IMG/VR virus record: IMGVR_UViG_3300036717_000121
Coordinates: 1 to 40,973 of that record
Strand: one strand, 5' to 3'
From: a virus
DNA: 40,973 nt
Shown piece by piece: positions 1,213 through 25,131 of the stretch (its first letter is position 1; every line of letters starts with the position of its first letter). The position numbers and the translations under genes are program-made. Below the pieces are notes generated by a model. It saw only the letters and a program-made list of their open reading frames with translations, was not told the origin of the DNA and made no database searches.

Positions 1213-1242
1213 ACTATAAATAAAATCGGTCTTATAAATCAA
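1213..1242 (-). promoter_or_regulatory. Sigma70-like promoter for the small membrane protein
   Basis: On the minus strand, TTGATT (1237-1242) and TATAGT (1213-1218) are separated by 18 bp, matching the consensus at 4/6 and 5/6 positions. It overlaps the last codons of the upstream fibre gene, which would let the 57-aa membrane protein be expressed independently of the fibres. Confidence 0.45.
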
Positions 1243-2969
1243 GAAGTTAATCCATAAAGAGAAATTACCGAGGTTACTACACTCGGTCCACCCACCGCAG
1301 TAAAGCTCAATGCATTCACCGGACCTGCTAACGGTCCCGTATAAACACCACTTGCCTGCCATCCCCGAGTAAATCGACCTCCATAATTATAATCGACTCC
1401 AAATCCGCTCATAGACACGGGACCACTACTATTATTAACATTGTAAATATAGTAACTCCCTGAGGCAAACCCGTAAGGTACCACAGGAGTAGTTCCTACA
1501 AGACCCATTAAGAACCCATAATTAGCACTGACATTAACAAAACCTGGAGGTGATATCTGCCTAACATCCCAGGTATTAAAACCTGACAAATAATTAGTGT
1601 TATAATAACTAACTCCGCCATTATCAGAAATGTTACAGGATATATTATAATCACCCGGTCCTAATATAATACCGATTTTTTCTATCACCACTAAAAGCGT
1701 TTTGTAATCAGTAGTAATTCCTGTTGTAAATGCACTGAGGCCACCTGTTGCTATATGGACCCATCCATTGCCCCCTGTTCCTGATTTCGATACAGTAATG
1801 GAATTTGCTGCATTAATAATCGAGATATTAGATCCTGCAGTGAAAGTATTCCAAGTAGGAGCTCCCGTAGTAGAACTTATGAGTGTCTGACCATCGGTTC
1901 CTTCAGAAGAGAATACTGTACCGGAACTATTAGTCTGTACCACCCCTTCTGTTAAGAAACCAAGAGTAGCTGAAGTATTAACAGTAAGATTGGTAACGGT
2001 CAAATTAGTAATTCCTGATAAGGATGTATCAAGGTTAGTGGTAACCACATTTGTAGCGCCTGTGGTATTGATATTTAATCCACCGTGAATATCAAGAACC
2101 TCTCCTGCTGGAACTGCAGTACCTGAATCTGTTTGGAATATAGTCGCAAGACCATTCGATTGGGTAATGTTCACGAGATTGTCTATTGGTGTCCCTTCAG
2201 TCAGTATACCGGTTCCGCCTAGAACAAGAAGGGTATTTCCGGCTCCCGCAGAGACTGCTCCTCCGGTATCTCCCGTCATAGTAGAATCAATTCCAGTGGG
2301 TATAAGAGACATAGTCAACGTTCCCGTTCCGGGAGTCCCCACAATAGTAACCGTGGTTCCATCTCCAACAAAATCATAATTTCCCGAAAGATCAGGAAAG
2401 ACAGGACCACCGCTATTGCCGGTAATAGTAAGATCAACGGGGTTGAGAATTGATGCAGTGAGAGTATTGGTTAAGGGGTTACCGGTGAATGTTATAGTAG
2501 TTCCATCACCTATGATGTTTATATTTCCCGAACTATCAGCAGACACTGATCCACCGCTATTACCAATCAAGTTCTGCCCAAATAAACCACCAACCAAAGA
2601 AAAGGTAAGAGTATTAGTGCCGGTATTTCCCGCAACAGTAATCGTTGTTCCATCTCCAATAACATTAATATTTTGCATAGAATCCGCCGGGACATGTACG
2701 CTACTGTTATTACCGGTCAGTGTAGCAATAATATTTTTTGATATCTGGAGCCATATCGCAATAAGTTGTCCATGATTGGTATTATTACCGGCAAGAGATA
2801 CAAGAATCCACGCTTCTCTTGTTATTTTATTCATCCAGAGATCACCTAAGGATACATTTCGATTGTCAGTCGTGAGGGGATCCCGAGTCCTAATGAACCA
2901 ATTAGGGGGATTAGACGCCTGTGTTCCCCGATACGCCAATGCTGCAGCACTCGATATTCTATTCGACAT
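1239..2969 (-). CDS. Tail fibre / receptor-binding protein, type-A anchor (576 aa)
   Basis: Residues 1-75 form an anchor-like module with LGDLWMNKITREAWILVSL, shared with the products of 2978-4705 and 10954-11835. Four repeats follow (about 80-260), each with a TGN-SGG turn, a GDGTTIT strand and a GN-TNTLT strand, typical of beta-helical fibre shafts. A linker QTLISSTTGAPTW (about 360-375) resembles the QVLTSNGA-ALPTW motif of neighbouring fibres. The last about 170 residues, from GWVHIATGG to the final ISLYGLTS, are a beta-rich tip whose boundaries match those of three neighbours while the interior differs. A membrane anchor or enzyme motif is absent. Role in adhesion is inferred from module structure and position. 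Confidence 0.75.
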   Translation of the reverse strand: MSNRISSAAALAYRGTQASNPPNWFIRTRDPLTTDNRNVSLGDLWMNKITREAWILVSLAGNNTNHGQLIAIWLQISKNIIATLTGNNSSVHVPADSMQNINVIGDGTTITVAGNTGTNTLTFSLVGGLFGQNLIGNSGGSVSADSSGNINIIGDGTTITFTGNPLTNTLTASILNPVDLTITGNSGGPVFPDLSGNYDFVGDGTTVTIVGTPGTGTLTMSLIPTGIDSTMTGDTGGAVSAGAGNTLLVLGGTGILTEGTPIDNLVNITQSNGLATIFQTDSGTAVPAGEVLDIHGGLNINTTGATNVVTTNLDTSLSGITNLTVTNLTVNTSATLGFLTEGVVQTNSSGTVFSSEGTDGQTLISSTTGAPTWNTFTAGSNISIINAANSITVSKSGTGGNGWVHIATGGLSAFTTGITTDYKTLLVVIEKIGIILGPGDYNISCNISDNGGVSYYNTNYLSGFNTWDVRQISPPGFVNVSANYGFLMGLVGTTPVVPYGFASGSYYIYNVNNSSGPVSMSGFGVDYNYGGRFTRGWQASGVYTGPLAGPVNALSFTAVGGPSVVTSVISLYGLTS

Positions 2970-2977
2970 AACGGCTC

Positions 2978-4705
2978 CTAATGGGTTAAACCATATAATT
3001 CTATTGTTCCTGAAATAGCCGCTGTGCCGTTAAATTGAATAAGCATATTGTTAACTGCTACACCACTATTAGGAGGGGTTCCTTGATATGATGCTCCCGC
3101 AGCCTGACCCTGATAGAGATTTGTTGGGTTATAGTTAACAAATTGACCCGTAATATTCTTTGCATAGTTAGTAGTAGTCAGATCATAGAGGAACACAGAG
3201 AAGCTTATATATTGATCAGAGGCGCTCGAGAATATAGGCGCTACAAGAAATACGTTTCCATTATTAACGTTCATATTAGAAAATGATGTTGAACTATAAA
3301 GATTATAAATAAGACCGCAGGTAAATACCCCAGAGAAGAATGTAGCACCATTATCACTTGAAAGCTGGATGGTAACTTGTGCTGCCGATCCTACGGCCGG
3401 TAAGAGTATTTTATCTGCAACCAATAAGTAAGAAGTATAGGTGGAACTGATTGAAGTATTAGTAAAGGCTGCTGAATTTTGACCAATGAGTGACTGACTT
3501 CCCACAAGTACTATTCCCGATCCTGTACCCCCGCCCGAAGCAGCAATGGTAATAGTATTATTCCCGTTGGTTATCGTAACGTTTGCACCCGCTGTAATAT
3601 TTGCCCATGCAGGCGCCCCTGTGCTTGAACTAATAAGTATTTGGCCGTCAGTACCTTTGGTAGAAGACAGATGTCCTGAGCTGTCGGACTGAATGACCCC
3701 TGCAGACGCGAAAGATAATGTCTCAGATGTCGTGGCAGTAAGATTATTCACCGTTAAATTAGTAATACCAGTAATAGTAGTATTAAGGTTTACCGTGACA
3801 GTGTTACCTGATCCTGAAGTATTAATATTGGTACCGCCTGCGATACGCAGTATTCCCGATGAAGGGGTAGCTGTTCCTGAGTCAGTCGTATAACTCGTTG
3901 CAACTTCAGAACCCGTATCTATCGTTAATGTATGAGTGCCGGGGTTACCAGTCACCGTAATAATTCCCGGAGTTCCCAAAAGAAATATATTTCCGGAGCC
4001 ATCAGGATGTACCGCTCCTCCGGTGTTGCCGGTAATAGAATCGATGGTGCCGCCCGATACAATAGATGCAGTAAGGGTGTGCGTTCCTGGATTACCAACA
4101 ATCTCAATAGTTGTTCCATCACCCACAATGTTAAAGTTTCCTGCACTTGCGGATACTGCTCCTCCTGAGTTACCGGTCATGGTAATAGCAAGAGAATTTA
4201 TCACTGATGCAGTGAGGGTATGAGTGCCGGGATTGCCTGCGATGGTTATAGTGGTTCCATCTCCCACCACATGGAAGTTTCCAGAGCCATCAGAAGATAC
4301 AATCCCACCGGTATTTCCTTCCAAAGTCTTAATAACTGCTCCAGGTACCACAGAAGCGGTGAGTGTATGAGTTGCCGCATTGCCAAGAATGGTTATCGTA
4401 GTACCGTCTCCAACCACGTTTATATTATTAGAAACGCTTGGGCCTACTGCCCCTCCTGAGTTACCGGTAAGTGTTTCAACTTCACTCGGCGTTACACCTA
4501 ATTCAACCCATGTTGCAAGACTTGCATTGAGAGCAACGAGCAACCATACCGTCTGATTAATTCTATTGAGCCACAAATCTCCTAGTGAAACATTAGTGCT
4601 ATCATTCTGAGTAGGATTAGCCGTTGCGTATATAAGATTAGGTGGATTAGAAGCATTAGTTCCCTGGTACGCTAGAGAACTGATCCCCGACAATATATTA
4701 CTCAT
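2978..4705 (-). CDS. Tail fibre / receptor-binding protein, type-A anchor (575 aa)
   Basis: This is a full-length paralogue of the 576-residue product encoded just downstream. Both start MSN, contain AY-GT-ASNPPN and the LGDLW-N anchor (residues 40-60), carry four TGN-(S/T)GG repeats (about 78-260), and end in LYGLT plus one residue. The C-terminal tip (about 400-575) diverges strongly, with Asn/Ser/Thr-rich strands. ATG at 4705 is preceded by an AGGAGTAGTA site. Two side-by-side paralogues with different tips suggest hetero-oligomeric fibres or alternative receptor specificities. Confidence 0.75.
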   Translation of the reverse strand: MSNILSGISSLAYQGTNASNPPNLIYATANPTQNDSTNVSLGDLWLNRINQTVWLLVALNASLATWVELGVTPSEVETLTGNSGGAVGPSVSNNINVVGDGTTITILGNAATHTLTASVVPGAVIKTLEGNTGGIVSSDGSGNFHVVGDGTTITIAGNPGTHTLTASVINSLAITMTGNSGGAVSASAGNFNIVGDGTTIEIVGNPGTHTLTASIVSGGTIDSITGNTGGAVHPDGSGNIFLLGTPGIITVTGNPGTHTLTIDTGSEVATSYTTDSGTATPSSGILRIAGGTNINTSGSGNTVTVNLNTTITGITNLTVNNLTATTSETLSFASAGVIQSDSSGHLSSTKGTDGQILISSSTGAPAWANITAGANVTITNGNNTITIAASGGGTGSGIVLVGSQSLIGQNSAAFTNTSISSTYTSYLLVADKILLPAVGSAAQVTIQLSSDNGATFFSGVFTCGLIYNLYSSTSFSNMNVNNGNVFLVAPIFSSASDQYISFSVFLYDLTTTNYAKNITGQFVNYNPTNLYQGQAAGASYQGTPPNSGVAVNNMLIQFNGTAAISGTIELYGLTH

Positions 4706-4725
4706 TACTACTCCTTAATTATTTA

Positions 4726-5421
4726 TTATTCTAATATTCCAAAAAGGGTAAATACTCCCGTAATAGTTCCTGAAGCACCGGCTATTTGTATAGCATTAAC
4801 ACTTGCAGTTCCAGAGGTGCCTCCAAAAGTAAGATTCGCTGCTCCTTTGGAACCTCTTCCACACATGGCAACGTTTGCTCCATTTGTCATATTAAAAAAA
4901 TAGGTACCAGCAGCTGATGCGGAAGGACTAGTAGTTCCGGCCAAAGACCCTATTTTAAAGTGCGCTGTGCTATTTGAACTGGTAAAACCACCACCGCTTG
5001 TGAGATTAATATATCCCGAGAAATAACCCGTTGTAACATAACTTGATCCTCCATTGGTAGAGAGAGTACATATAAGGTCTTGGTCTGCAGTTGTACTTAC
5101 CAAAAGTTTAGAACAAAGAAGATAATAGATATTATAGGTATTCGTTATTCCACTCGTGAAATTTACCGTACTTGCTCCACTTACCGTTTGAGAACTAATC
5201 AATACAAAGTAATTGGTAGCAGGACTAATAAAAGAAGGCGCAACACCTGCGCCATTACTTGTCAAAACAGACCCCGAGGAAGACATTCCGGTAGTTGATT
5301 GTAACGGTCCTGTACTCGTTGTTCCTGCTATAAGAGGAGCATAGGCGGTCGCTGATGAAATGCCTGTTCCCCCCGTTGAAGTGGTAGTAGTAGAAAAATT
5401 ATCAGCATTCTGATTTGCCAT
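4726..5421 (-). CDS. Short fibre/adhesin, type-B anchor (231 aa)
   Basis: The N-terminal 75 residues contain the GGTG-(S)-TAY-PLIAGTTSTGPLQ and SVLTSNGAG motifs that recur in the 240- and 715-residue neighbours. The remaining 155 residues form a tip that begins YFVLISSQTVSGASTVNFTSGI and ends FTLFGILE, clearly related to the end of the next gene upstream. Rich in Ser, Thr and Gly, no Cys motif of note. It is 2 bases from its upstream paralogue, so the pair is translated together. Likely a short accessory fibre or fibre-tip adhesin. Confidence 0.7.
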   Translation of the reverse strand: MANQNADNFSTTTTSTGGTGISSATAYAPLIAGTTSTGPLQSTTGMSSSGSVLTSNGAGVAPSFISPATNYFVLISSQTVSGASTVNFTSGITNTYNIYYLLCSKLLVSTTADQDLICTLSTNGGSSYVTTGYFSGYINLTSGGGFTSSNSTAHFKIGSLAGTTSPSASAAGTYFFNMTNGANVAMCGRGSKGAANLTFGGTSGTASVNAIQIAGASGTITGVFTLFGILE

Positions 5422-5423
5422 AG

Positions 5424-6146
5424 TTACTCCAATACGCCAAAGAGAGTGAATACCCCTGATGCAATATTTCCACTACTCATACTAAATTGAAAGGCATTGA
5501 TTGTTGCTGTTGTAAAATAAAATCCTCCACCTACTCCAAATGCTGTTGTTGCGAGTGCCGTACTATTAAGAGTCATAATAGAATTCTGAAGAGGCACAGT
5601 TCCGGAAGTTATATCTAAGCAATTTATTATACCGGACATACCTGTAGTAGTTGATAAAGCAGGACTAATAAAAAACGAGGTACTTGCGTTAACATTATTA
5701 TTAGTTGTTGAATTATATGCCCAATAATTCATACCAGTACCGAGTGAACTGGTTATATAACTGCTACCTCCATTAATCGAGAAAACAAGTTTGAGTTGCG
5801 CGGTATTTGTTGCAGGAACTACATTACTAAGATAAAAAACATAATTATTATAAGTACTCGTTATCCCACTCGTGAAGGATATCGTTGCTGAAGAACTTGC
5901 CGTCTGAGATTGAATGAGTACTAAATTCCCTCCCCCGCTACCCGCAGCTTGCCAGGTAGGAAGCGCAGAAGCACCATTAGAAGTAAGAACTTGGCCGCTA
6001 CTTCCCAGACCAGAAACGTTTTGAAATACTCCTGTCGATGTCGTTCCGCCTGTAATAACTGCATAGGCGGTAAAGGAACTATCCCCGGTACCGCCTTGAG
6101 AAACTGTTAAAGGATTAGATGTATTCGTTGCATTATTAGTAGCCAT
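5424..6146 (-). CDS. Short fibre/adhesin, type-B anchor (240 aa)
   Basis: Starts MATNNATNTSNPLTVSQGGT and contains one complete copy of the repeat that is tandemly arrayed in the 715-residue gene (TAYAVITGGTTSTGVFQ, then QVLTSNGASALPTWQ, residues 17-70). The tip, residues 75-240, starts LVLIQSQTASSSATISFTSG and ends FTLFGVLE, paralogous to the tips of the downstream 231-residue protein and more distantly of both long fibres. Good AGGAGA site upstream of ATG 6146. Probably a fibre component; receptor unknown. Confidence 0.7.
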   Translation of the reverse strand: MATNNATNTSNPLTVSQGGTGDSSFTAYAVITGGTTSTGVFQNVSGLGSSGQVLTSNGASALPTWQAAGSGGGNLVLIQSQTASSSATISFTSGITSTYNNYVFYLSNVVPATNTAQLKLVFSINGGSSYITSSLGTGMNYWAYNSTTNNNVNASTSFFISPALSTTTGMSGIINCLDITSGTVPLQNSIMTLNSTALATTAFGVGGGFYFTTATINAFQFSMSSGNIASGVFTLFGVLE

Positions 6147-6155
6147 TGTATCTCC

Positions 6156-8303
6156 TTAAACAACCGTTATATTACCGATACTTGAAATTACAATCCATGA
6201 AGTATTAGCAACGTTACATACTAATCTCACTGCGTCATAAATATTTGATGATGAAAGCGACCCGCCAGTTCCCGAAGTCGTGGTAGAAGTTCCAAAGAAT
6301 ATTTGTTGCCCGACATTTTGCGCAATAGTCCATCCAAGCGCAGTATTCATTCCAGTTATTTCAATAAGAGTTCCTACGGCCGCTGTTGTGGGTAGAGTTA
6401 AAACAAGATTGCTTGCCTTATTAGCAATGTAACCATTATTAACTGCGGCATTCTGATTAGCAGTTATAACTGACCACACAAAAGAAGCCCCTGCAGCCTG
6501 CCATGTTGGCAATGCGCCGGCACCGTTGCTGGTAAGTACATTTCCTGAGCTTCCGAGCCCAGAAACATTTTGAAATGCTCCAGTTGCTGTTGTTCCTGCG
6601 CAAAGAACTGAATATGCGGTAAAAGTTGTATTTCCGGTACCGCCATTAGCCACCACTAAATCGCCGCCTAGAGTCTCAGTTGATCCAGCGCCCGCAAAAG
6701 TAAGACCGGTAGATCCACCAGTAAACGTGAAAGAGTTCCCAGTTAATGCTCCACCAGAATCTCCCGTTATACTTATTGAAGACGCCGCAGGAGATGCCCA
6801 TACGGGATCTGCCCCGGTTGCCCCCGTGAGAACTTGTCCCGTGGTTCCTACTGCTAATTGTGTTATAGCTCCCGTACCTGCTCCAACCAATACTCCATGA
6901 TTCGTAAGGGTTGTTCTGCCAGTTCCGCCGTTGGCAACAATTAAGTCACCACCAAGGGTTTCTGTAGAGCCTGCTCCAGCGAATGTTAAACCAGTCGTAC
7001 CGCCTGTAAAGGTAAATGCAGCGCCTATAAGTGCTCCTCCAGAGTCTCCCGTAATAGAGATAGAGCTTGCTGCAGGTGAAGCCCATACAGGGTCAGCGCC
7101 TGTAGCGCCCGTGAGCACTTGTCCCGTCGTTCCTACGGCAAGCTGAGTGATCGCACCTGTACCTGCGCCTACAAGGACACCGTGATTTGTTAATGTTGCT
7201 CTGCCAGTTCCACCGTTACCTACAATAAGAGTACCTGTAAGGGTTTCAGTGGTTCCAGCGCCTGCAAAAGTAAGGCCGGTTGTTCCACCAGTAAAGGTAA
7301 AGCTACCACTCGTTATCGCTCCGCCACTATCACCTGTTATAGATATTGTAGCCCCAGCACCACTTTGCCAGGTAGGTAAAGCAGCTGCGCCATTAGAGGT
7401 AAGAATTTGGCCCGCAGCTCCTAATCCTGATACATGCTGAAATGCTCCTGTAGCCGTAGTTCCTGCTGCAATAAGAGAATAGGCAGTAAAGGTAGTATTG
7501 CCTGTTCCACCGTTAGCCACAACAAGGTCTCCACCCAGGGTTACTGTCGCACCACTTCCGGTGAAAGTAAGACCGGTTGTTGATCCAGTAAGCGTAACCG
7601 TTGATCCGGTAGCCGATCCTGAGTCTCCATCAAGAGTTACAATCCCGCCTGCTGATGCTGTTTGCCACGTTGGTAATGCAGAAGCGCCATTACTGGTAAG
7701 CACTTGACCACTCGTTCCAACACCAGAGACGCTTTGTAGTACTCCTGTCGATGTTGTTCCGCCTGCAATAACTGCGTAGGCGGTAAATGAGTTATCTCCG
7801 GTTCCACCATGAGCAACATTAAGAGTACCGCCTAAGGTTTCTGTAGAACCTGCTCCTGCGAAGGTAAGCCCAGATGCGCCGCCGGTGAAGGTAAATGCAG
7901 CGCCTACAAGAGCACCACCACTATCCCCCGTAATGGATATAGAACTTGCAGGAACAGCTTGCCATGTAGGAAGCGCAGAAGCGCCATTAGACGTAAGAAT
8001 TTGTCCGCTGGTACCAACACCGGATACGTTCTGGAAACTTGCGGTACTGGTCGTTCCTGCGGTAATTAAGCTATAGGCGGTAAACGTACTTCCTCCTGTA
8101 CCACCACCTACCACATTTGCTATGCCAAAAGCCGGATCTGAGGATGATCCTTGGGCTATTAAGGGAACACCGGATACTGATCCGGGTCCTACTGAACTTA
8201 TTGCACTGGTTCCTTCACCAAGAAGGATAGAATGGGCGGTTAATGTTTGAGCGCCTGTGCCGCCTTCAACAACAGGCATAGGGGAGATTCTTTTATAACT
8301 CAT
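6156..8303 (-). CDS. Long repetitive tail fibre (715 aa)
   Basis: The protein is a tandem array. I count seven GGTG copies followed by FTAY or LTNHG, several QVLTSNGA-ALPTWQ copies, and five TGDSG(G/S) copies each followed by FTFTGG-TGLTFAGAG or a variant. The last about 110 residues (from VWSVITANQNAAVNNGYIAN) form a distinct C-terminal domain ending ISSIGNITVV. Such glycine- and threonine-rich repeats are typical of trimeric phage fibres and beta-helical shafts. Two of the modules are identical in protein over long stretches but differ in codons (see findings). The ATG at 8303 overlaps the stop of the upstream gene, so the two are translationally coupled. Confidence 0.75.
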   Translation of the reverse strand: MSYKRISPMPVVEGGTGAQTLTAHSILLGEGTSAISSVGPGSVSGVPLIAQGSSSDPAFGIANVVGGGTGGSTFTAYSLITAGTTSTASFQNVSGVGTSGQILTSNGASALPTWQAVPASSISITGDSGGALVGAAFTFTGGASGLTFAGAGSTETLGGTLNVAHGGTGDNSFTAYAVIAGGTTSTGVLQSVSGVGTSGQVLTSNGASALPTWQTASAGGIVTLDGDSGSATGSTVTLTGSTTGLTFTGSGATVTLGGDLVVANGGTGNTTFTAYSLIAAGTTATGAFQHVSGLGAAGQILTSNGAAALPTWQSGAGATISITGDSGGAITSGSFTFTGGTTGLTFAGAGTTETLTGTLIVGNGGTGRATLTNHGVLVGAGTGAITQLAVGTTGQVLTGATGADPVWASPAASSISITGDSGGALIGAAFTFTGGTTGLTFAGAGSTETLGGDLIVANGGTGRTTLTNHGVLVGAGTGAITQLAVGTTGQVLTGATGADPVWASPAASSISITGDSGGALTGNSFTFTGGSTGLTFAGAGSTETLGGDLVVANGGTGNTTFTAYSVLCAGTTATGAFQNVSGLGSSGNVLTSNGAGALPTWQAAGASFVWSVITANQNAAVNNGYIANKASNLVLTLPTTAAVGTLIEITGMNTALGWTIAQNVGQQIFFGTSTTTSGTGGSLSSSNIYDAVRLVCNVANTSWIVISSIGNITVV
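6640..8110 (-). repeat. Tandem protein-coding repeat modules inside the long fibre gene
   Basis: Modules of roughly 85-100 codons recur across this stretch. Those at about 6720-6930 and 7005-7215 encode the same residues over long runs (GVLVGAGTGAITQLAVGTTG and QVLTGATGADPVWASPAASS). The DNA is not identical: one comparable 78-base stretch differs at 17 positions, all synonymous by my count. Confidence 0.7.
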
Positions 8304-9883
8304 CAGAATACCTCATAATTTGTACTGTTGAAGATGACTTGTACTGCTTCATAGGCGGTGTTCATCACAAAACTTGTGACTCCGTCTATACCAACCGTTC
8401 CACCAACTGTTGTTATGGTAATATTATTTGAAGAACAAAGGCCAAATTTATCTTTAATAACAAAAACACGTCCTGTCGTAGGAGCATTGGGAAGTAATAT
8501 AGTTATTACCCCGGCAGTAACATCACAAGAAATGTAGTAATCGGTAGAAAGAGCTGTATAAGGTGATGCAGCATGAGTTACGGTAACATAATGGCTCGTG
8601 ACAGTAGTACTTGATGAGATAGTTATAATGTTAGCGCCTGAAGTTACTGATATATTTGTTCCACCACTAATAACCGCAGTTCCCAATTGATCACTCGATT
8701 CAACGACTACATTCGCCGTAGACGCTACATCAACGCCTCCTATACCAAGAATATAACAAGCGGCAGTAACCCCTGTATTACCAATACGAGTAGTATCAGC
8801 TTCAGTAGCAGTTGCACCCGTTATATTACCAAGGTAGATATTGCCTGATCCTGATGTTATGGTAGATCCAGCCTGGTATCCAATGGCAGTATTGAGTCCT
8901 CCACTGGTTAATGCAGAAAGTGAACTATACCCTAGTGAAGTATTATGAGTTCCGGTGAGAGAACCATTGCCGGCATTGTTTCCTATAATGGTATTAAGAT
9001 TTGCATCGGTAACTTCCAAAAGCATAGTGCTAATGGTTCCACTGAATATCACTGAAGATCCTGAGGCAATGCCATGAAAGCTCACAGTGCTCCCTGCAAC
9101 AGATCCTACATCACCATCAATTTGAGTAATAGGTACACCACCAACAACACCAATCGTGATAGCATTCGCTGAAGGAGTAATGGTAACACCACTTCCTGCA
9201 GTAATAACAGCCGTCCCTAATTGGTTTGCATTTTCAGTCACAACGGTTACGGTGGATGACCCAACGTTGACTCCGTCTATACCGCATATAAAGGCTTTAT
9301 TCAGTTGTTGAGTTCCGGTTCCCGTCGCTGATCCTATACGTAACACGTTCGATTCTGCTGCAGTACCAGAATTGTTAATAAGAATGTTGTCAGACTCTGA
9401 GCCAGCATAGTTAGAACCAGCATTATATCCCAGAGCAACATTATAGGCGCCATTACAGTTTTCGAGGGTAGAGGTTCCTATGCCAATACTCCTACTTGAA
9501 GTAGAAGATCCAGCACCAAAGCACCCTTCACCAACACCTACACAATCAGAACCACTTGTTATAGTAGATCCTGCACCAAATCCAAACATACAATTGTTAG
9601 ACCCGGTGGTCATATCCTGCAATGCATGGGCGCCAAAAGCGGTATTATCTGTTCCTGAAATTCCACTATTTCCTGAAGATTCACCAAATATCGTATTACC
9701 ATTCAAATCAGTAACGTTCAAAAGCATTAACGTACCAGACCCTGAGAAGAATATAGTAGCTCCCGCCTGCGGGTTAGCTTCAAAGGTTATAATTGCACCT
9801 GATACGCTTCCGATATCCCCGTCTATTTGTTCAACATATTTCCCCGCGGGGACGGTAGGAGTATATTTTCCCGACTGACTCAT
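8303..9883 (-). CDS. Fibre/adhesin with YadA-head-like repeats (526 aa)
   Basis: Two related halves are visible. Each begins with a QIDGD(I/V)GSV segment (about residues 18 and 255), continues through TAFGAHAL or TSLGYSSL and GFGAGSTITSGS or GYQAGSTITSGS repeats, and ends with a GTAVI segment. These NTAxGxxAG repeats resemble the left-handed beta-roll of trimeric autotransporter adhesin heads such as YadA. The C-terminal 95 residues (YTALSTDYYISCDVTAGVIT, then LPNAPTTGRVFVIKD) match a domain common at the ends of phage fibres. It is coupled by overlapping stop/start to the downstream 715-residue fibre. Likely a trimeric adhesive fibre; trimerisation is inferred from family resemblance. Confidence 0.75.
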   Translation of the reverse strand: MSQSGKYTPTVPAGKYVEQIDGDIGSVSGAIITFEANPQAGATIFFSGSGTLMLLNVTDLNGNTIFGESSGNSGISGTDNTAFGAHALQDMTTGSNNCMFGFGAGSTITSGSDCVGVGEGCFGAGSSTSSRSIGIGTSTLENCNGAYNVALGYNAGSNYAGSESDNILINNSGTAAESNVLRIGSATGTGTQQLNKAFICGIDGVNVGSSTVTVVTENANQLGTAVITAGSGVTITPSANAITIGVVGGVPITQIDGDVGSVAGSTVSFHGIASGSSVIFSGTISTMLLEVTDANLNTIIGNNAGNGSLTGTHNTSLGYSSLSALTSGGLNTAIGYQAGSTITSGSGNIYLGNITGATATEADTTRIGNTGVTAACYILGIGGVDVASTANVVVESSDQLGTAVISGGTNISVTSGANIITISSSTTVTSHYVTVTHAASPYTALSTDYYISCDVTAGVITILLPNAPTTGRVFVIKDKFGLCSSNNITITTVGGTVGIDGVTSFVMNTAYEAVQVIFNSTNYEVF

Positions 9884-23170: not shown

Positions 23171-24889
23171 TTAAGCGAGTGTCGCACGTAAGTTGAGTAC
23201 CCAAAGATCGTTCGTAATACGTGGAACCTCTGCGAATTTGTACCCAACAGAAGCATTCAACGCTAATGGACCATCATAGATAGGCGGTCTATAAATGAAG
23301 GCTGCAGAATAACCATCTTGTTCGATACATGCATATGCTTCCATACCAACACAGAAGATGTTATATACGGTGTTACCGTTAGCAGATGCGTTTGCTACAG
23401 AAGAACCGATAGATGAAATAAGGAACCGAAGGTTACCTATTGCACCCCATTCTGACTGTAATGCGTTCATAGGCGCTGGATACTGGTTTACTTGTATAAA
23501 GCCAGAAACTGCGTCTAAGTTACCCGTTAACTGCGTAGAGCAGAGAGCGAAATAAGCATTACGTACAGGAGCTGTACCAAATTTATCTGCCCCTTCGATG
23601 TTATCCATAATTGTGTATGCATTATTATTAAGTAATGCACGAACAACTGTGTCCACATCAGAACGAGTAATTTCGGTAGGGTTATCACCATTCACACCGC
23701 CAGTACAGTTAATGAATGACGCGGTAGACGCCAACATATCACGGGTTAACTGATCTTCAGTTTGTCGTAAAGATACACCAAGACGTGCTGCGCATTCGTT
23801 TAATCAGTTCTGTTACTTTTATGACCTATTGCTAGGCGGGCAAACCTCTTCGGATTCGCCTCTCTATCTTTCGAATAGAGTTCAGACTATCGCATCCACT
23901 TTCGTGGCCTTCTCGTTTAGTCGTTCAGCGTGGACTTTTTCATTAATTACAGTATAATAGTTAATGAAAGGATTCATATGGGTAAAATTGTTAACTTTAA
24001 GACTAATCATTCTATTGCAGAAATCGCTTATCTCGCTGGCCTTATAGACGGTGAGGGATGTATATATATTGGCCATACAAAACAAGGAAAATATGGTAAC
24101 GGCTATCAATGGCATTCTATGCTCAAGATTACAAGCTGCGATGAAGAGCTCGTAGTATGGCTTGAGAATACTTTTGGCGGATCCAAAGACTCGCGCTATA
24201 GATGGACGAGCAAAAAGAAATTCACTCGACCTGTTTATAACTGGCAAGCAACTGGTCCCATGTTGGATTATTTGTTGCCGATAGTTAAACCATATTTGAT
24301 TATCAAAAAGAAACAGTGCGATGTTATGATTCGCTACAGACTCACTTCCAAGAATATTGGCAGCAAGAGACTTCCGCCCGAAATTACTGAGCAGCGCCTG
24401 ATGCTGTTGAGTGAGTTGAGAAATCTTAATTCGCGTTTCCATGATCATCCTCTTAAAAATCCTTCGCCCTTGTTACCATAGCTTTCGCCGTAGGCTTCCA
24501 AGTCAATTAGAGAAGGTTTTAATCCCGCATTAAACTTTACGGGATCCTGATTCTGGAGTGTAACTTGTTCATTAAGTTGCACATAGGTCAAAGTTCCAGA
24601 ACCAGACATACGGCACCTACGCTTTACCGTAAAAACTGATCTTAGCATCGATATCAACTGCAGTAAGATTCTGTGGTGGTGGCGTAACACCAGAATTTCC
24701 TAGTGGAACCATCGCAGTGTTAAGAGGGTTATAACGACGCATACGCAGTGTTGTACCACCATTACGGGGCATATTCTTACGCATCGCAGGTATTTTGTGG
24801 ATCATATTTGGAACCGGAACAGATAAGAGTTTATAACTAAAACTCTGCTGCACCGGAGCAGGTAATGAACTCGTAGTAGTAATTGACAT
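23171..24889 (-). CDS. Major capsid protein, N4-gp56-like, interrupted by two insertions (315 aa after removal)
   Basis: Coding parts on the minus strand are 24889-24626, 24588-24539 and 23804-23171. Joined they give 948 nt, an exact multiple of three, and 315 residues with no internal stop. The N-terminus (MSITTTSSLPAPVQQSFSYK, then RKNMPRNGGTTLRMRRYNPL) and the segments AVDIDAKISFYG, TYVQLNEQVTLQNQDPV and LNECAARLG match the N4-gp56 capsid family pattern, in which a YG-Y-turn leads to a DPVLNE-type helix. The C-terminal part (RSDVDTVVRALLNNNAYTIM) contains the P-domain-like region. The start ATG 24889 has AAGGGAATACT upstream; a longer frame to 25060 begins inside the tRNA and is rejected. 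Without removal, stops lie in both interruptions. Confidence 0.85.
23931..23958 (+). promoter_or_regulatory. Intron-internal promoter for the antisense endonuclease
   Basis: TGGACT (23931-23936) and a perfect TATAAT (23953-23958) are 16 bp apart on the plus strand. It is 20 bases before the endonuclease ATG with AAAGGA between. The promoter lies inside the intron and runs opposite to the capsid gene. Confidence 0.65.
23978..24481 (+). CDS. LAGLIDADG homing endonuclease, antisense in the intron (167 aa)
   Basis: Start at ATG 23978 because AAAGGA sits 8 bases upstream and a sigma70-like promoter lies ahead. The motif IAYLAGLIDGEGCIYIGHTK (residues about 14-33) is a single LAGLIDADG motif with the catalytic Asp/Glu, as in one-motif enzymes that act as homodimers. 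KSYxxW-type strands follow (SMLKITSCDEELVVWLENTF, NWQATGPMLDYLLPIVKPYL), typical of this family. It is on the strand opposite to the capsid gene and its 3' end overlaps the 5' core of the intron. Such enzymes cut intronless alleles so that the intron spreads. Confidence 0.9.
   Translation: MGKIVNFKTNHSIAEIAYLAGLIDGEGCIYIGHTKQGKYGNGYQWHSMLKITSCDEELVVWLENTFGGSKDSRYRWTSKKKFTRPVYNWQATGPMLDYLLPIVKPYLIIKKKQCDVMIRYRLTSKNIGSKRLPPEITEQRLMLLSELRNLNSRFHDHPLKNPSPLLP
24589..24625 (-). other. 37-nt capsid-gene insertion with group I P1/P10 hallmarks but no core
   Basis: Starts AAAG and ends G like the large intron. The exon end UACGGU (24631-24626) pairs with GCCGUA (24614-24609) with U.G at the junction. 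UAGGU (24619-24615) pairs with the 3' exon ACCUA (24588-24584). It contains an in-frame TAG (24619-24617). Only 37 bases lie between the exons, too few for any ribozyme. Removing it gives TTT TAC GGT ACC TAT GTG, in frame and as expected for the capsid family. Could be a deleted intron, a bypassed segment or an assembly gap. Confidence 0.75.
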
Positions 24890-25054: not shown

Positions 25055-25131
25055 TGGCATCCGTGGAGAGAATCGAACTCATCATTTTCAGGTTGAAAAC
25101 CTGAGGTCCTAACCATTTAGACGACACGGAC
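25055..25131 (-). tRNA. trnE(ttc): tRNA-Glu (anticodon TTC), CCA encoded
   Basis: On the minus strand the acceptor GTCCGTG pairs with CACGGAT (one G.U). A D-arm with AAATGGTTAGGA, an anticodon stem CAGG/CCTG around TTTTCAA (anticodon at 25095-25097), and a T-loop GTTCGATTC are all present. The discriminator G is followed by encoded CCA. It lies 166 bases upstream of the capsid start, in the same transcription direction. The gene reads GAA and perhaps GAG codons. Confidence 0.9.

Follow-up and report, generated by a model that had tools for sequence, protein, structure and literature searches.

A 37-nt core-less mini-intron in a viral major capsid gene as a probable satellite of the neighbouring group I intron

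Results

The capsid gene and its two insertions

The window, that is, the whole stretch of DNA analysed here, comprises 40,973 nt (positions 1 to 40,973 of IMG/VR virus record IMGVR_UViG_3300036717_000121). Its minus strand carries a major capsid gene divided into three exons by two insertions of 37 and 734 nt (Table 1), and PHROG 1357 (major head protein) matches the gene on both sides of the longer one. The shorter insertion, below the mini-intron or mini, lies 50 nt upstream of the 734-nt intron, below the partner, and the two flank the 50-nt exon 2. The original prediction of two insertion points 50 bases apart in one capsid gene thus proved correct. It had also proposed that splicing of the 734-nt intron, joining DPV to LNECAARLG, gives an unbroken protein of 315 residues. 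The length is right only when both insertions are removed: the DPV/LNECAARLG junction alone leaves the 37-nt insertion in place, with its frame change and in-frame UAG, and the product stops at 90 aa. In intronless relatives, a single 315-aa capsid protein is made. Exon 2 is constrained as coding sequence and is retained in the protein: among mini-bearing loci, its first nine codons have a pN/pS ratio of 0.145.

Directly upstream of the capsid gene is a tRNA-Glu (UUC) gene (25055-25131, minus strand), and a tRNA gene is likewise found upstream of the capsid gene in a related contig (L133, 8059-8132, plus strand). Further along the minus strand, at 1239-9883, there is a series of long repeat-rich paralogous proteins with the motifs TGNSGGAV... 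and GGTGxxTFTAY..., which are probably tail or adhesion proteins. Two close capsid relatives, L299 (PLSG01000101) and L300 (JANQJL010000105), lie on contigs assigned by binning to Parachlamydiaceae and Simkaniaceae; the capsid gene of L299 is interrupted by an intron at site 144. The binning of these contigs is a weak hint at environmental chlamydiae as hosts.

Table 1. Coordinates of the capsid gene, its two introns and their pairing elements in the window
Feature	Position	Strand	Remarks
Capsid exon 1	24626..24889	-	MSITTT...KISFYG, 88 codons, 3' end UACGGU; spliced alignment to intronless relatives
Mini-intron, 37 nt, core-less	24589..24625	-	AAAGCGTAGGTGCCGTATGTCTGGTTCTGGAACTTTG; terminal G (omega-G); absent from intronless relatives
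P1' exon strand UACGGU	24626..24631	-	last U forms the U.G pair; pairs with GCCGUA, 24614-24609
Mini IGS', P1' strand GCCGUA	24609..24614	-	pairs with the end of exon 1
Mini IGS', P10' strand UAGGU	24615..24619	-	pairs with the start of exon 2, ACCUA (24588-24584)
Helix X, mini linker strand	24595..24606	-	UCUGGUUCUGGA; pairs with 24557-24546
Helix X, exon strand	24546..24557	-	UCCAGAAUCAGG; ends at -8 from the 5' splice site of the partner
Capsid exon 2	24539..24588	-	50 nt
Complete group I intron (partner)	23805..24538	-	734 nt; nhmmer with family alignment, structure, boundaries
Partner P1 exon strand AUCCCGU	24539..24545	-	pairs with IGS GCGGGAU, 24528-24522
Partner P10 strand UUUAAU	24529..24534	-	pairs with 3' exon AUUAAA, 23804-23799
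P3 5' strand CCUUCUC	24510..24516	-	pairs with GAGAAGG, 23914-23908; family covariation
LAGLIDADG homing endonuclease ORF (putative)	23978..24481	+	167 aa, antisense to the capsid gene, in the P6 loop
P7 5' strand GACUA	23918..23922	-	pairs with UAGUC, 23889-23885
P8, CCAC-GAAA-GUGG	23896..23907	-	family alignment and position
P9	23862..23880	-	CUCUAUUCGAAAGAUAGAG; family alignment and position
Capsid exon 3	23171..23804	-	A TTA AAC GAA TGC ... stop; PHROG 1357

The 734-nt intron

Protein-to-DNA alignment with intronless relatives places the junction at GATCCCGU / A...ACUG / AUUAAAC, the last base of the intron being the G before AUUAAAC. The same junction is found in other contigs bearing the same intron (L001, L010, L043, L147, and L151), so that the boundaries originally given for it are exact.

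The check suggested with the original prediction, a covariance-model search, gave RF00028 at 14.9 bits (E 0.68), under the gathering score of 50, and this was the sole match in Rfam scans at both gathering and relaxed thresholds. At the gathering threshold, Rfam also found nothing in six loci with compact relatives of 195-250 nt. As RF00028 misses these ORF-less introns as well, the lack of a match has no power to refute the intron here; the gathering score is a threshold of the model and not a defining property of group I introns. Since Rfam misses the family, we took 28 introns without an ORF, about 200 nt in length and from many positions in this capsid gene, aligned them, and added the P7 pseudoknot by hand to their consensus fold. 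The resulting consensus has 43 pairs in the canonical order P1-P3-P4-P5-P6-P7-P8-P9. Standard pairs occupy 97.0% of the pair cells compared with 71.7% after shuffling, the covariation score is 0.66 compared with 0.19, and 288 cells are changed on both sides compared with 85; when the paired strands are slid by one base, pairing falls to about 40%. In P7 all cells are paired, and two of its five pairs show changes on both sides.

The 734-nt intron matches the family alignment in two pieces (nhmmer, E 3.5e-32 and 2.1e-17), the split being due to the endonuclease ORF in the P6 loop. P1, P10, P7, P8 with its GAAA loop, and P9, all named in the original prediction, are present, and the call of a group I intron in the major capsid gene is borne out by the family core and by the flanking PHROG 1357 matches. 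Judged by its sequence, the insertion is a normal group I intron with a P3-P9 core including the P7 pseudoknot, and it is predicted to self-splice with guanosine as the initiator.

The ORF inside the intron encodes a LAGLIDADG protein with a single motif, with matches to PF00961 (LAGLIDADG_1, E 9.4e-07) and PHROG 5046 (E 5e-24). With this ORF, the intron would count as a mobile group I intron, the endonuclease being putative. Among relatives, an antisense ORF is the rule at capsid sites 97, 105, and 117 (31, 6, and 4 cases, respectively), but not at site 12/13, nor always at site 104. In the intron at site 12 of L143, the ORF matches DUF551 (PF04448, E 2.6e-06) rather than an endonuclease.

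Taken by itself, this is a known kind of phage intron, the same as those of T4 (td, nrdB, and nrdD), SPO1, Twort, and the capsid gene of Tuc2009 (listed in PMC3706429), although RF00028 misses its family, whose members are spread over about 30 sites of a single gene. In mycobacteriophage LittleE, too, a group I intron interrupts the major capsid gene, and its excision was demonstrated by RT-PCR (PMC3706429). Like the present intron, it has boundaries of the U/G type and a LAGLIDADG-like endonuclease on the opposite strand; on the other hand, LittleE has one intron and no reported mini (PMC3706429), and nhmmer detected no sequence similarity between the LittleE intron and the present family.

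An intron-rich gene

Several features of the locus go beyond the original prediction, namely the antisense LAGLIDADG ORF, the mini, which is not an ordinary group I intron, and the roughly 30 positions at which complete introns interrupt the 945-bp capsid gene in 198 distinct relatives, all found on viral contigs from metagenomes. The maximum is reached in L014, where one copy of the gene has four complete introns and a short insertion. At every site where boundaries could be set, they go from U to G. Within the fetched loci (L001-L318), the flanking genes are almost free of introns of this family (nhmmer).

Some sites have peculiarities of their own. Near position 5470 on the minus strand of L090, site 118 contains a 4-nt insertion (CACUCCGU/UAUG/CAAACA). 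The introns at the same site in L071, L113, and L046 start with U, and that of L071 ends in AUG; the UAUG of L090, which would disrupt the reading frame, may be the scar of a deletion. Introns at site 97 (e.g., in L028, L032, and L057) have an extended P1 loop with the conserved stretch UCUUUGAAAUUUCUUGG, which is missing from the compact site-97 introns of L014, L133, and L145.

The mini-intron

Minis were gathered by capsid similarity, by a pattern search, and by a search for the neighbouring intron that was not conditioned on the presence of a mini; five matches elsewhere (L094, L097, L115, L123, and L152) were excluded as chance occurrences of the pattern. This yielded 70 distinct versions of 28-56 nt, all at one codon boundary, which in other relatives reads as uninterrupted GGN/ACN. 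The mini has the guide features of a group I intron: pairings with both exons equivalent to P1 and P10, here P1' and P10', the U.G pair, and the terminal G. The minis obtained without conditioning on their presence likewise have P1' with its U.G pair and end in G. What is absent from all 70 is the P3-P8 core, as the stretch between the internal guide (IGS') and the terminal G consists solely of a linker that pairs with exon 2.

The exon pairings are maintained by sequence changes on both sides. UACGGU precedes 67 of the 70 minis, while the same codons are used in just 13 of 121 mini-less relatives, and two of the exceptions (L310 and L311) have UAUGGU:GCCAUA, with UAU:AUA in place of UAC:GUA. 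In P10', 70 of 70 minis have a Watson-Crick match to the third base of the codon that opens exon 2, with C-G in 48, A-U in 8, U-A in 7, and G-C in 7, and the type of this pair has changed about 16 times on the tree of 62 capsid genes. In L222, three P10' pairs have changed together, the first exon-2 codon being CAA and the mini having UUG.

An in-frame stop is present in 69 of 70 minis, including all 17 with a length that is a multiple of three, compared with 63% in shuffled sequences. In the window, the stop (UAG, 24619-24617) falls within the P10' strand. Such stops, together with the hairpin at what would be the take-off codon, are also features of programmed ribosomal bypass. In gene 60 of T4, a short insertion with a stop and a hairpin, associated with a homing endonuclease, stays in the RNA and is hopped over by the ribosome. 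If the minis were never removed from the RNA but bypassed in the same way, their link to homing-endonuclease elements would also fit, as in the case of T4 MobA/byp. However, bypass in gene 60 requires matched take-off and landing codons, whereas in the minis the triplet before landing is NNG, and a glycine codon matching GGU occurs there in 0 of 70. Moreover, the stops are at variable positions, from 3 to 48 nt, and neither the covariation of P10' with the 3' exon nor the register of helix X (see below) agrees with a hop. We regard bypass as very unlikely.

Still less probable, in our estimate, is a split gene, in which only the 734-nt intron is spliced and translation stops and restarts at an AUG within the mini, giving two capsid polypeptides. 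The mini of the window does contain an in-frame AUG (MSGSGTLTYVQL...), as do 22 of the 70 minis, but 35 of 70 have no in-frame start before exon 2. The intronless relatives make one protein rather than two, and restarting would leave the P1' and P10' covariation and helix X unexplained.

Association with a downstream intron

In 145 distinct loci chosen regardless of the mini, a complete downstream intron at sites 97-117 is present in 15 of 15 loci with a mini and in 22 of 130 without it (p 1e-10, a value inflated by linked sequences and uncorrected for relatedness). In all 190 distinct loci, 60 of 60 mini-bearing ones have the downstream intron, and the pattern search returned no mini without it wherever the contig was long enough, the intron being the first insertion after the mini. 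None of these 190 loci has a full-length intron at the site of the mini that could represent its ancestor. In the window, nhmmer detected a single core belonging to this group I family.

The dependence is one-way, of the mini on the partner, as site-97 introns exist in L306 and L312 without a mini. For the site-97 class, this rules out the idea, which we had considered for the 97- and 105-class introns, that the partner requires the mini. Introns of the 104 class are mostly mini-less. We also considered that the mini supplies a stop that is missing from the partner, but, as seen by eye, 104-class introns likewise have no early stop. Co-conversion during homing of the partner may well help to hold the two together.

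Helix X

In 67 of 67 minis, the linker that separates IGS' from the terminal G has a complement in exon 2, and we call the resulting pairing helix X. Its mean duplex energy is -12.4 kcal/mol, compared with -6.4 kcal/mol for shuffled linkers. The linker sequence varies with the class of the partner, and within two of the classes linkers pair better with their own exons than with permuted ones: -11.2 versus -6.6 kcal/mol (sd 0.28) at site 97 and -15.4 versus -11.9 at site 105, neither value being reached in 5000 permutations (0/5000 in both cases). At site 117, where the sequences are too few for this comparison, 87 of 5000 permutations did so. The E-values and permutations are only partly corrected for shared ancestry, and the counts of changes on trees are a better guide. 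In helix X, pairs 4 and 7 show at least 13 and 8 double changes, respectively, with the pairing kept.

About 3 nt separate IGS' from the start of helix X, whose exon strand extends to about -9 relative to the partner 5' splice site. This register is held at four partner sites, 97, 104, 105, and 117, where exon 2 is 26, 48, 50, and 86 nt long, respectively. As the register is constant across different sites and exon lengths, helix X follows the partner and not the mini. Energy folding of the window sequence places P1', helix X, and the partner P1 side by side (z -4.4). The fold of 24515-24640 also has a predicted outer helix, in which exon-1 UUUU pairs with a conserved AAAA after the partner IGS and closes the P1'/X/P1 junction. 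A P9.0-like contact between the mini and the partner core could not be demonstrated. The stretch GUAACAG of some minis is similar to AGUAACAG, which is conserved close to the 3' end in full introns, but it occurs in 97-type minis only and is explained by helix X.

These observations bear on the possibility of an autonomous mini, a group I intron reduced to the extreme, which would splice without its neighbour and accompany it through homing co-conversion only. The distance of 26-86 nt to the partner is within the reach of co-conversion, and there are precedents for small introns. Fungal rRNA gene introns of 56-81 nt (Phialophora) retain P7 and a terminal U, and such introns, with P1, P7, P10, and a pairing of the middle of the intron with the 3' exon, have been reported to splice in vitro, among them a 67-nt rDNA intron with little core (PMC3160393). 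They resemble the mini in having P1 with the U.G pair, P10, few core helices, and a middle part that pairs with an exon, but they reside in nuclear rRNA genes, and no partner intron has been described (PMC3160393). By contrast, the minis are 28-56 nt long, end in G, reside in a protein gene of a phage, and have a register set by a neighbouring intron. P7 was not found in any of the 70, and with a terminal G rather than U they fall outside the definition of the degenerate fungal introns. Furthermore, 28 nt is too short for P3-P8, and no trace of these helices was seen; minis without a downstream intron number 0 of 60; and the position of helix X is tied to the partner 5' splice site, not to the mini 3' splice site, a fixed register that co-conversion leaves unexplained. 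An autonomous mini is therefore unlikely in our view.

Discussion

We propose that the two linked introns share one ribozyme, and that the 37-nt mini is a core-less satellite of the 734-nt intron. The pairings, their covariation, and the fixed register of helix X make this the probable reading. More generally, it seems likely that the locus represents a natural system of one ribozyme and two introns, in which introns down to 28 nt in length have kept nothing but the guide, the splice sites, and a docking helix, and rely on the catalytic core of their neighbour for excision.

The following sequence of events would account for the anatomy of the mini. By pairing the linker with the exon directly upstream of the partner P1, helix X would bring P1' to the base of P1. 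P1' could then dock in the partner core, replacing P1, and guanosine would attack at UACGGU; after that, exon 1 would attack at the terminal G of the mini. With the exons aligned by P10', exon 1 would be joined to exon 2, that is, UACGGU to ACCUAUGUG. Loss of the mini would also abolish helix X, and the partner would then be free to self-splice. Excision of the mini before the partner fits this scheme, because splicing of the partner would take the core away from helix X. The in-frame stop in the mini may hold ribosomes off the partner until splicing is complete. The sequences of the metagenomic contigs directly show the anatomy of the mini, the covariation, the restored frame, the coding constraint, the association with a downstream intron, and the fixed register of helix X; excision, the involvement of the partner core, the sequence of steps, and the function of the stop are inferred from them.

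Such chemistry in trans is feasible, as engineered group I ribozymes remove core-less inserts in trans; trans-excision ribozymes have removed up to 28 nt in vitro (cited in PMC4094466). These ribozymes and the Tetrahymena spliceozyme are similar to the proposed system in that a core removes a core-less insert with guide helices at both splice sites (PMC4094466). They are, however, laboratory constructs that carry the guide themselves, while here the system would be natural and act in cis, with the guide within the excised piece.

A related possibility is that a group I core does excise the mini, whose main role, however, is to regulate or time the partner, or to mark and disrupt the target of the endonuclease and thereby make the mini-bearing allele immune. 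The prevalence of in-frame stops (69 of 70, and 17 of 17 at lengths that are multiples of three) would suit such a role, as would the position of helix X, which abuts the partner P1 and covers the adjoining exon. Still, the site-97 introns of L306 and L312 live without a mini, which means that regulation is not obligatory, and we consider it quite unlikely that this is the main function. The shared ribozyme remains our preferred interpretation.

The novelty of this locus lies in the mini and its coupling to the partner; we found no report of a natural core-less group I intron served by its neighbour in the open-access literature. A group I intron is assumed to bring its own catalyst. Dependence on an external catalyst is a proposed step in the origin of spliceosomal introns, and to our knowledge it has not been seen for group I. 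A capsid gene with about 30 intron sites provides rich natural data on how introns spread. If the interpretation is true, few known introns would be shorter than the mini, which would be nature's counterpart to the engineered trans-excision ribozymes and would show how an intron can come to depend on a catalyst outside itself. Within group I, the mini and its partner would then parallel the way in which spliceosomal introns leave catalysis to a shared catalyst.
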